NCBI GenBank assembly: GCA_021496505.1
Contig: CP053031.1
Location: 1,542,001-1,606,000 of the forward strand
Length of the DNA stretch: 64,000 bases
Origin: Thermoleophilia bacterium SCSIO 60948
GTDB taxonomy: Bacteria; Actinomycetota; Thermoleophilia; Solirubrobacterales; 70-9
Direction of reading: 5' to 3'
Part shown: positions 23,537-26,971 of the stretch, one piece after another
Position numbering within the stretch: the first letter of the stretch is position 1
Layout: every line of letters starts with the position of its first letter
The notes under the pieces: model-generated
What the model was told of the DNA's origin: nothing
Database searches by the model: none
Seen by the model: the letters and a program-made list of their open reading frames with translations, nothing else
Made by a program: the position numbers and the translations under genes

Positions 23537-24376
23537 ATGCGATTCGAGAAGTGGCAGGCCCTCGGCAACGACTACGTGATCGTCGAGGAGGAACGGCTCC
23601 CCTGGGAGCTGACCGCGGCGAGGATCCGCGAGCTCTGCGCGCCGCACACCGGCGTCGGCTCGGACGGCGTCCTGCTGCTTTCCCCAGCCGACGATCCCGA
23701 GCACGTCGCCCGGCTTCGGATCTTCAACCCGGACGGCTCGGAGTCGGGTCTGTCGGGCAACGGCGCGCGCGAGGCGGTGCTCTATTTGCGCGCGGCCGGC
23801 TGGGTCGATGAGGACCGCTTCACGATCGTCACTTCCGCCGGGGAGCTCCGACCGACGATCACGGCGCCGGGCGAGGTCTCGATGGAGCTCGGATCGGCGT
23901 CGCTGAGCTCGGAGGATTTCCCCTCCGGCGGTCCCGACGGCCGCGGCACGGTCAGCTCGGACGGTCGCGACTGGGACTTCCAGTTCGTCGACGTCGGCAA
24001 CCCGCAGTGCGTGATCGAGGTCGCTTCCGGGCTCGAGGAGCTCGACCTGCCGCGGATCGGTCCCGCGATCGAGCGCAGCGAGCTGTTTCCGAACCGCACG
24101 AACGTCTCCTTCGTGAGCTTCGACGGCGCGGCGGTGCGAGCGCGGATCTTCGAACGCGGGGTGGGGGAGACGCTCTCCTCGGGCACCGGCGCGAGCGGTG
24201 CCGCGGTCGCCGCGCGGCTCGCCGGTGCCGAAGGCCCGCTGACGGTGAACCTCGATGGCGGCGAGCTGATCGTCGACGTGGGCCCGGAGCTCGAGTTGAC
24301 GCTCACGGGCGTCGCCGAGCGTGTCTATTCGGCGACGCTCTCCGACGAGCTCGTCGCCCGTATCGGCGCGGTCTAG
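23537..24376 (+). CDS. dapF: Diaminopimelate epimerase homologue with both catalytic Cys replaced by Ser
   Basis: 279 residues from ATG 23537 (MRFEKWQALGNDYVIVEEER). The fold hallmarks are clear: GNDYV, GVGSDGVLLL, FNPDGSESGLSGNGAREAV, VDVGNPQCVIEV, NVSFV, ERGVGETLSSGTGASGAAVA. In characterised DapF the two active-site cysteines sit in CGNG and CGTG; here both positions are TCG serine codons (Ser73 and Ser215). The rest of the pocket is kept. It may be a serine-using epimerase, an enzyme with another reaction, or inactive. The place after miaA is the normal actinobacterial dapF site, so orthology is likely even if chemistry differs. Confidence 0.85.
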   Translation: MRFEKWQALGNDYVIVEEERLPWELTAARIRELCAPHTGVGSDGVLLLSPADDPEHVARLRIFNPDGSESGLSGNGAREAVLYLRAAGWVDEDRFTIVTSAGELRPTITAPGEVSMELGSASLSSEDFPSGGPDGRGTVSSDGRDWDFQFVDVGNPQCVIEVASGLEELDLPRIGPAIERSELFPNRTNVSFVSFDGAAVRARIFERGVGETLSSGTGASGAAVAARLAGAEGPLTVNLDGGELIVDVGPELELTLTGVAERVYSATLSDELVARIGAV

Positions 24377-24420: not shown

Positions 24421-25614
24421 ATGGCCTCCAAGCGACCGCTGACCGAGCCCGCCCGTCGGCTCGACACGATCCCCCCATACGCCTTCGCCGAGCTCGAACG
24501 CAAGGTCGCGGCCAAGCGCGCCCAGGGGATCGACGTGATCAGCCTCGGTATCGGTGACCCGGTCGAGCCGACCTTCGACTTCATCGTCGACGCGATGAAG
24601 AAGGCGGTCGCCGACCCCTCGACCCACCAGTACCCGTCGAATCGCGGCCGCGAGGAGTTCCGCGACGCGCTCGCGCGCTTCTACCGCGACCGCTTCGGCG
24701 TCGAGATCGACGCCGAGACGGAGATCATCCCGGCGATCGGCGCCAAGGAGTGCATCTACAACGTCTGCTTCGCCTTCCTCGACCCGGGCGACATCGCCCT
24801 CGCCGCCGACCCCGGCTACCCCGTCTACACCGGCGGTCCGGCGCTCGCCGGCGCGGAGGCGCATCTGATGCCGCTCGTCCCCGAGCTCGGCTTCGTCCCG
24901 GATCTCGACCGGGTCCCCGCCGGCGTCCTCGAGCGGGCACGGATCATGTTCCTCAACTACCCGAACAACCCGACCGGCGCGGTCGTACCCGACGGGTTCT
25001 TCGAGCGGGTCGTCGAGTTCGCGCGGCGAAACGAGATCCTCGTCATCCACGACAACGCCTACTCCGAGACGACCTACGACGGCTATGTCGCCCCGAGCTT
25101 CCTCGCGACCCCCGGCGCCAAGGAGGTCGGGGTCGAGGTCTTCTCGCTGTCGAAGGGCTTCAACATGACCGGCTGGCGCTGCGCGGCGATCGCCGGCAAC
25201 GCCGACGCGGTCGCCGCCTACTGGCGCCTGAAGACCAACATCGACTCGGGACTCTTCGAGGCCGTCCAGCTGGCGGGGACCGCCGCGCTCGACGGGCCGA
25301 AGGAGCCGCTCGCCGAGATGAACGAGCTCTACACCCGCCGCCGCGACCTCGTCGTCTCCGCCCTCGCCGAGATCGGTGTCGAAGTAGACCCGCCGAAGGG
25401 CACGATCTACGTCTGGGCACCGGTCCCAGACGGTCACAGCTCGGCCTCGTTCGCCGAGCTCGTGCTCGACCAGGCCGCCGTCGTGATCTCGCCGGGGTCG
25501 CAGTTCGGGCCCCACGGCGAGGGCTTCTTCAGGATCTCCCTGACGGCGCCCGACCACAGGATCACCGAGGCGGTCGAGCGGATGCGAACCCACATGGGGC
25601 CGAGCGCCGCCTAG
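24421..25614 (+). CDS. dapL: LL-diaminopimelate aminotransferase-like PLP enzyme
   Basis: 397 residues from ATG 24421. Class I/II fold-type I aminotransferase. Visible are VISLGIGDPVEPTFDFIVD, HQYPSNRGREEFRDALARFY, AIGAKECIYNVCFAFLDPGD, MFLNYPNNPTGAVVPDGF, HDNAYSETTYDG, and the PLP lysine Lys245 in FSLSKGFNMTGWR. These resemble the DapL/DapC-type group, which converts tetrahydrodipicolinate to LL-DAP. Its place after dapF, with dapA and dapB nearby and no dapD or dapE seen, supports a DAP role. Aspartate or alanine aminotransferase activity is the alternative. Confidence 0.75.
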   Translation: MASKRPLTEPARRLDTIPPYAFAELERKVAAKRAQGIDVISLGIGDPVEPTFDFIVDAMKKAVADPSTHQYPSNRGREEFRDALARFYRDRFGVEIDAETEIIPAIGAKECIYNVCFAFLDPGDIALAADPGYPVYTGGPALAGAEAHLMPLVPELGFVPDLDRVPAGVLERARIMFLNYPNNPTGAVVPDGFFERVVEFARRNEILVIHDNAYSETTYDGYVAPSFLATPGAKEVGVEVFSLSKGFNMTGWRCAAIAGNADAVAAYWRLKTNIDSGLFEAVQLAGTAALDGPKEPLAEMNELYTRRRDLVVSALAEIGVEVDPPKGTIYVWAPVPDGHSSASFAELVLDQAAVVISPGSQFGPHGEGFFRISLTAPDHRITEAVERMRTHMGPSAA

Positions 25615-25624: not shown

Positions 25625-26971
25625 ATGCGCGCTCCGGTCCGCTACGCGAACTCAGGCAGCCTGCGGATCGCCTATCGCACCTACGGCGCGGGCGATCGCG
25701 ACGTACTCACGGTCCTGCCGACCGTCGGGACCTGCGAGCTGATCGACGAGCCGCCCGCGCTGCGGCTCGTCGAGCGGCTGCGGCGCGTCGGCCGGCTGAT
25801 CGTCTGGGACCGCCGCGGCATGGGGCTCTCCGACAACGTCCCCGAGCCGCCGACGCTCGAGGAGCAGGTCGATGACGCGGTCGCGGTTCTCGACGCCGCG
25901 GGCGCGAAGCAGGTCATCCTCTGCGCGGAGGCCGAGGCGACGGCGCTCGCCGCGATGTTCGCCGCCACGCACCCCGAGCGCGTCGAGCGGATGGTCGTCC
26001 TCAACGGGATGGCGCGGATGACGAAGGCCGAGGGGTACGAGTGGGCGTGGGACGCGGCCGAGCGCCGCTCGAGCCTGGTCGAACCGATGCTCGCCCGCTG
26101 GGGCACGGGGGAGAACGGCAGATGGCTCGGCCCGGTCCTCGCCGACGGTGACCCGGACTTCATCGAATGGTGGGGGCGCTGGGAGCGGACCTCCTCACCG
26201 CCGAGCTGGGCGCGGGCGCAGCTCGAGCTGATGGGCGAGATGGACGTCCGCGCGATCCTGCCGCGGATCCAGGCGCCGACGATGATCTGCACGCGCCCCG
26301 ATGCCCACGGGATCGATCGCCGCCACGCGGCCCACCTGATCGAAGGGATCCCGGGTGCCGAGGCCCGCGAGCTCCCCGGCCGTGACGCGATCTCCTTCGG
26401 TGACGGGCTCGAGGCCTACGTCGACGCGATCGACGAGTTCACCTCCGGCGGCGTCACACGGCCGGCCGAGGTCGACCGCACGCTCGCGACCGTGATGTTC
26501 ACCGACATCGTCGACTCCACGGCGAGCGCGGCGGAGCTCGGCGACCGGCGCTGGCGCGAGCTGCTCGAGCGACACGACGATCTCAGCCGCAGGCTGATCG
26601 CCTCACATGGCGGGGTCGCTGTGAAGTCGACCGGCGATGGGTTCCTCGCCCGCTTCGACGGCCCCGCGCGCGGCGCTCGCGCGGCGCTGGCGATCGTCGG
26701 CGCGGCGCGAGAGATCGGGCTCGGCATGCGCGCGGGCGTGCACACCGGGGAGGTCGAGCGGATGGGATCGGATCTGGGCGGTGTCGCCGTCCACATCGGC
26801 TCGCGGATCACCGATCAGGCGGGGGCTGATGAGGTCCTCGCCTCCTCGACGGTCCGCGACCTCGTCATCGGCTCGGGTCTCGAGTTTGCCGCCGCGGGAG
26901 AGGCGGATCTGCGCGGTGTCCCCGGCCGGTGGCCCCTATTCAAGGTTTCTGAGGGGCCAGAACGCCGCTGA
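25625..26971 (+). CDS. Degenerate alpha/beta hydrolase fused to class III adenylate/guanylate cyclase
   Basis: 448 residues. Residues about 10-275 have the alpha/beta hydrolase fold (LIVWDRRGMGLSDNV, AATHPERVERMVVLNG, PTMICTRPDAHGID). The nucleophile elbow, normally GxSxG, reads C100-A-E-A-E104, so the serine position is Glu102. Residues about 285-445 form a class III cyclase: TVMFTDIVDSTASAAELGDR supplies the first metal Asp, AVKSTGDGFLARF the Lys and second Asp, and GMRAGVHTGEVERMGSDLGG the transition-state region. This architecture is widespread in actinobacteria. The hydrolase half is probably a ligand sensor for cAMP or cGMP production. Confidence 0.85.
   Translation: MRAPVRYANSGSLRIAYRTYGAGDRDVLTVLPTVGTCELIDEPPALRLVERLRRVGRLIVWDRRGMGLSDNVPEPPTLEEQVDDAVAVLDAAGAKQVILCAEAEATALAAMFAATHPERVERMVVLNGMARMTKAEGYEWAWDAAERRSSLVEPMLARWGTGENGRWLGPVLADGDPDFIEWWGRWERTSSPPSWARAQLELMGEMDVRAILPRIQAPTMICTRPDAHGIDRRHAAHLIEGIPGAEARELPGRDAISFGDGLEAYVDAIDEFTSGGVTRPAEVDRTLATVMFTDIVDSTASAAELGDRRWRELLERHDDLSRRLIASHGGVAVKSTGDGFLARFDGPARGARAALAIVGAAREIGLGMRAGVHTGEVERMGSDLGGVAVHIGSRITDQAGADEVLASSTVRDLVIGSGLEFAAAGEADLRGVPGRWPLFKVSEGPERR

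Follow-up and report, generated by a model that had tools for sequence, protein, structure and literature searches.

Conserved serines in place of both catalytic cysteines in the DapF orthologue of Solirubrobacterales, a putative two-serine diaminopimelate epimerase

We analyzed a stretch of 64,000 nucleotides, referred to below as the window, from Thermoleophilia bacterium SCSIO 60948 (order Solirubrobacterales; contig CP053031.1, positions 1,542,001 to 1,606,000). It carries a gene for an orthologue of the diaminopimelate (DAP) epimerase DapF in which both catalytic cysteines are replaced by serine. The Ser/Ser DapF is a real and conserved feature, and this is well supported by its occurrence across the order. 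On the combined evidence of sequence, orthology, predicted fold, conservation and gene context, and with no known alternative found, we consider that the protein is probably the working DAP epimerase of this organism, with two serines standing in for the catalytic cysteine pair. With slightly more reserve, we favor a broader proposal in which it would be a cofactor-free two-serine enzyme that serves the order as its sole DAP epimerase and belongs to a pattern of repeated Cys-to-Ser exchange across Actinomycetota. In the textbook account, DapF and its fold relatives rely on a thiol/thiolate pair to abstract an alpha proton (pKa ~29) without a cofactor, and covalent aziridine inhibitors rest on the thiol pair of DapF. 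If the native Ser/Ser enzymes are active, such chemistry needs no thiol, and the enzymes are predicted to resist both oxidation and inhibitors directed at thiols. Should they lack epimerase activity, meso-DAP would be formed by an unknown enzyme in an entire order, and the outcome would be new either way.

Both catalytic cysteines are replaced in the only DapF of the genome

The first-pass annotation of this DNA had reported SGNG at residues 73-76 and SGTG at residues 215-218, with TCG as the serine codon in both motifs, and translation of the gene confirmed this (Table 1). In the alignment both serine columns coincide with the catalytic cysteines of solved DapFs. By descent the protein is a DapF: its score against the DapF equivalog model TIGR00652 (190 bits) lies above the cut-off of 114.65, the same model was matched by all 56 aligned relatives, and its only Pfam match was to PF01678 (DAP_epimerase), in two stretches. 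It lacks the two cysteines of the DapF signature (CGNG ... CGTG), and we therefore call it a cysteine-free DapF orthologue rather than a two-thiol epimerase. Family models label Ser/Ser proteins as DapF with the catalytic residues ignored, which should serve as a warning for annotation. The genome is represented by one contig of 3.42 Mb and is 97.65% complete. A second, canonical DapF, which would have offered a simple way out, was searched for in this genome and none was found, the PF01678 matches being confined to the two halves of the protein described here.

Both serines are fixed throughout Solirubrobacterales

Ser/Ser was found in all 71 non-redundant Solirubrobacterales DapFs covering both sites, among them named records of Conexibacter, Solirubrobacter, Paraconexibacter and Patulibacter. 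Another family of the same class, Thermoleophilia, is likewise Ser/Ser throughout (f7, 17/17). Families f5, f6, f8 and f10 of the class are Cys/Cys, as is f9 except for two Ser/Cys members (L143 and L149). The question of whether Ser/Ser is fixed in a clade, raised by the first-pass annotation, can thus be answered positively for the order and negatively for Thermoleophilia as a whole.

Codons of both the TCN and the AGY type are used within Solirubrobacterales at each of the two serine sites. Since a single base change cannot lead from one type to the other without passing through a non-serine codon, the use of both codon families indicates that selection, and not drift, keeps serine itself at both positions. 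Every Solirubrobacterales genome searched contains one DapF homologue and none of these is Cys/Cys. The same serine pair recurs in over 80 genomes that were sequenced independently, which excludes sequencing error or chance, and with the order uniformly Ser/Ser the serines are no error that resequencing would turn into TGC codons. The chance that we are dealing with a sequencing or assembly error, or with a pseudogene, is negligible: besides the agreement among genomes, by which it was ruled out, the open frame is full-length and the predicted fold is of high confidence, and no supporting point was found.

Two observations on the class as a whole were made along the way. In family f7 (L111, L112, L114-L125, L128-L130) the second motif reads SG[TS]S, with the glycine at position 218 replaced by a serine that is invariant in the family. 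A DAP_epimerase match was absent from 10 of 149 class genomes (G016, G028, G038, G064, G084, G088, G089, G092, G102 and G110), which are probably incomplete bins.

The DAP-binding residues are retained next to clade-specific changes

In Corynebacterium DapF, replacement by alanine of N15, N74, N85, N159, N194, E212, R213 or T223 abolished activity (PMC5296763), and in Anabaena DapF the ligand is contacted by N13, N66, N77, N164, N197, E215, R216 and T226 (PMC12039745). The equivalent residues N11, N64, N75, N155, N189, E206, R207 and T217 are invariant in Solirubrobacterales, as are those that recognize the amino and carboxyl groups at the distal end of DAP. The flanking residues had been described as fully conserved, but this was incorrect. 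Compared with Cys/Cys relatives, the clade differs by GNPQ in place of GNPH (Q157, 71/71), E/Q in place of M/I at position 79, serine in place of E191 and glycine in place of A221, among others, and I204 also belongs to its specific residues. Isoleucine or phenylalanine at position 204 goes with Ser215 (10/12 against 1/35 family-level units, in a count that ignores kinship), an apparent association that we treat as only a lead.

The AlphaFold model of the protein reached a predicted local distance difference test score (pLDDT) of 97.3 and places Ser73 and Ser215 immediately ahead of helices 74-86 and 216-228, respectively. Its best match in the PDB was the ligand-bound DapF 9mro, with a template modeling (TM) score of 0.89, and the DapF fold of two pseudo-symmetric halves was recovered.

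Cys-to-Ser exchange is recurrent across Actinomycetota

We scored the catalytic pair of DapF in 47 family-level units of Actinomycetota: 29 units had Cys/Cys, 6 had Ser/Cys, 4 had Cys/Ser and 8 had Ser/Ser, counts which point to recurrent exchange of cysteine for serine at either catalytic position. Several families are uniform, namely f31 (7/7 Ser/Cys; L182, L183, L185-L188 and L190), f21 (9/9 Cys/Ser; L213 and L221-L228) and f47 (3/3 Ser/Ser). Parsimony on a tree built without the two columns requires a minimum of 7 changes at site 73 and 6 at site 215. DapFs with a natural Ser/Cys or Cys/Ser pair that is fixed in the family show that serine is tolerated recurrently, and the four combinations (Cys/Cys, Ser/Cys, Cys/Ser and Ser/Ser) form a natural series for dissecting the mechanism. 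The quick tree places the Ser/Ser proteins of Solirubrobacterales and f7 apart. A higher likelihood was obtained when the Thermoleophilia Ser/Ser rows were constrained to group together, and a clade of all Ser/Ser proteins was not rejected by the approximately unbiased test (p-AU 0.31). A single Ser/Ser origin within Thermoleophilia fits as well or better, and we do not argue for independent origins in Solirubrobacterales and f7.

The survey also brought up additional DapF-like proteins. Those of families f24 and f38 (L211, L217, L218, L219 and L220) are Ser/Ser paralogues with a degenerate second motif, SA[AT]G (SAAG or SATG), found beside a Cys/Cys DapF, and they probably have a different function; in the L211 genome there are two DapF matches, of which only the Ser/Ser copy was read. 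Divergent extra homologues beside a Cys/Cys DapF were seen in genome G050 (L110:1-3808, SGNG/SGSS) and in genome G131 (L103:1-3065, SANG/SGTG). These two assemblies are fragmented and the extra homologues could be on foreign contigs.

Need for meso-DAP and the search for another source

The substrate of LysA is meso-DAP, and lysA is present in 40 of 41 Solirubrobacterales genomes. Moreover, meso-DAP serves as the diamino acid diagnostic for the peptidoglycan of the order (PMC3035278) and has been detected in Solirubrobacter (PMC10722151). We searched for enzymes of known families that might supply it in place of DapF. The meso-DAP dehydrogenase Ddh was absent from the 41 Solirubrobacterales genomes and from 46 genomes picked mainly for their Ser-bearing DapFs. 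Ala_racemase_C matched exactly one protein in each of 18 Solirubrobacterales genomes, and Asp/Glu racemase-type proteins numbered no more than one per genome with one exception, so that no extra racemase of either type was found across Solirubrobacterales. Proline racemase occurred in 2 of the 41 genomes, with no PF05544 match anywhere in the genome of SCSIO 60948. PhzF-like proteins showed a patchy distribution (28/41), this genome included.

Weighing the alternatives

Three ways out had been envisaged in the first-pass annotation: a Ser/Ser enzyme that epimerizes DAP, another epimerase, or a protein with a different reaction. The dilemma is real, and the evidence gathered here from sequences and their context favors the first option over the other two. 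Several points nevertheless weigh against it. Cys-to-Ser mutants of PddB retain less than 0.1% of activity (PMC8225329), the same is true of M. tuberculosis DapF as cited in that article, and the corresponding mutants of HisR are greatly reduced in activity (PMC11602996). In the papers searched we found no characterized two-serine, cofactor-free racemase or epimerase. Finally, our search for alternative epimerases covered known families only, and an epimerase from a family outside these may exist. A precedent for the Ser/Ser enzyme is the natural Ser/Cys 4-hydroxyproline epimerase, which has the same fold and is active (PMC4113996). A literature search for earlier mentions of serine in DapF found none.

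The loss of the thiol pair, the near-complete inactivity of Cys-to-Ser mutants of ordinary enzymes, the scope of the searches and the PhzF-like proteins are also what speaks for an unrecognized enzyme making meso-DAP, with the DapF orthologue reduced to a DAP-binding, regulatory or partial-step protein. We regard this, the main rival, as unlikely, since none of Ddh, an extra Alr-type or MurI-type racemase or proline racemase is order-wide, PhzF is patchy, and both serines are retained without exception together with the DAP-binding residues. In addition, many other actinobacterial families carry one or both serines and no Ddh, so a separate substitute enzyme would have been needed repeatedly. 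By analogy with HisR, CntK, DcsC and PddB, the protein could also be imagined to act on DAP or a similar diamino acid in another way, such as by elimination or as a racemase of another amino acid: substrates have been switched among DapF-fold relatives (PMC11602996, PMC8225329), and within the proline racemase group relatives of the Ser/Thr type act as dehydratases (PMC4113996). This is improbable, however, because the residues that read the distal groups of DAP (contacts in PMC12039745) are invariant, the gene stays within a DAP-forming cluster and meso-DAP would be left without a known source. It is harder still to believe that no epimerase is needed at all. The DapL-type enzyme encoded next to dapF yields LL-DAP directly, and LL-DAP could then enter the wall while lysine is made otherwise, but the order-wide diagnostic value of meso-DAP, its detection in Solirubrobacter and the near-universal lysA contradict this very remote scenario.

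A possible two-serine mechanism and its closest known relatives

If the Ser/Ser protein is indeed the DAP epimerase, LL-DAP delivered by DapL (or by DapC/D/E in relatives) would be bound in a closed cleft by N11, N64, N75, N155, N189, E206, R207 and T217, with Ser73 and Ser215, each at a helix N-terminus, flanking the alpha carbon from its two faces. One serine, deprotonated to the alkoxide under the influence of the helix dipole and the buried site, would take the alpha hydrogen, and the hydroxyl of the other would protonate the carbon from the far side, so that one center is inverted. The closed cleft would be desolvated, the helix N-termini would assist, and the binding of the alpha-ammonium and carboxylate groups would lower the pKa of the alpha hydrogen as in DapF; the product, meso-DAP, would pass to LysA and to peptidoglycan. 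The site must have been re-tuned if this proposal is right, with the residues peculiar to the clade as candidates: Q157, E/Q79, I204 and other secondary changes may tune the site to serine. As to a possible benefit, Corynebacterium DapF is inactivated when its two cysteines form a disulfide (PMC5296763); we speculate that Ser/Ser proteins may gain immunity to such inactivation.

Ordinary DapFs (TIGR00652; structures 9mro, 3ejx, 5m47 and 4ijz) have in common with the Solirubrobacterales protein the miaA-dapF position, the fold and the DAP-binding residues, and differ from it at both cysteines and by its GNPQ, E/Q79, S191 and G221. The laboratory mutants C73S and C217S of Haemophilus influenzae DapF (2q9h, 2q9j) have the same fold and one of the two replacements each. 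They are engineered, single and placed in a site adapted to cysteine, whereas in Solirubrobacterales the replacement is natural, affects both sites, is fixed and comes with further changes. Within the same fold, the first cysteine is also naturally a serine in two members of the proline racemase superfamily, the 4-hydroxyproline 2-epimerase B9JQV3 (Ser/Cys), which epimerizes, and the trans-3-hydroxyproline (t3Hyp) dehydratase B9K4G4 (Ser/Thr) (PMC4113996), but both belong to another family (PF05544) with other substrates and carry serine at only one of the two cysteine positions. PddB, HisR, CntK and DcsC share the DapF fold and the two-base scheme, yet keep both cysteines and act on other substrates. 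Histidine, 2,4-diaminobutyrate (Dab) and O-ureidoserine racemases of this fold would be expected to lack residues that bind the distal end of DAP; in the Solirubrobacterales proteins these residues are invariant. In the Asp/Glu racemase EcL-DER (reviewed in PMC8142540) one catalytic cysteine is naturally replaced by threonine, also a hydroxyl residue, although this enzyme is of another fold and family, keeps one cysteine and performs a near one-way conversion.

Gene neighborhood and LL-DAP supply

The dapF gene follows miaA both in Ser/Ser families and in most Cys/Cys families. LL-DAP-forming genes lie beside the Ser/Ser dapF in 24 of 27 Solirubrobacterales neighborhoods (15 with dapL, 9 with dapC and/or dapE) and in all 17 neighborhoods of family f7, where they are mostly dapD/dapC/dapE; the identities of neighboring genes were checked in L111 and L040. 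The LL-DAP supply route is variable, while the Ser/Ser dapF is constant. In the window, the neighbor previously noted as DapL-like held up, with a match to an LL-DAP aminotransferase subfamily model (Table 1). We also considered DapL as a replacement co-varying with the serines and rejected this, as several Ser/Ser genomes lack it and most Cys/Cys genomes have it.

Table 1. Features of the dapF locus, in coordinates of the window
Feature	Position	Strand	Remarks
miaA	22594..23514	+	upstream neighbor of dapF; conserved in Ser/Ser and most Cys/Cys families
dapF orthologue, 279 residues, both catalytic Cys replaced by Ser	23537..24376	+	TIGR00652, 190 bits; PF01678, two stretches
Ser73 codon (TCG)	23753..23755	+	site of first catalytic Cys (H. 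influenzae DapF Cys73, Anabaena Cys75), by alignment
Glu79 codon (GAG)	23771..23773	+	helix after Ser73; E/Q in Solirubrobacterales, M/I in Cys/Cys relatives
Gln157 codon (CAG)	24005..24007	+	replaces His of GNPH; fixed in Solirubrobacterales
Ser215 codon (TCG)	24179..24181	+	site of second catalytic Cys (H. influenzae DapF Cys217, Anabaena Cys224), by alignment
dapL-like LL-diaminopimelate aminotransferase gene	24421..25614	+	downstream of dapF; NF006756, 540 bits; TIGR03540, 522 bits, below cut-off of 593

Further along the window, positions 25625-26971 encode a single protein in which an alpha/beta-hydrolase-like region is fused to an adenylate/guanylate cyclase catalytic domain.
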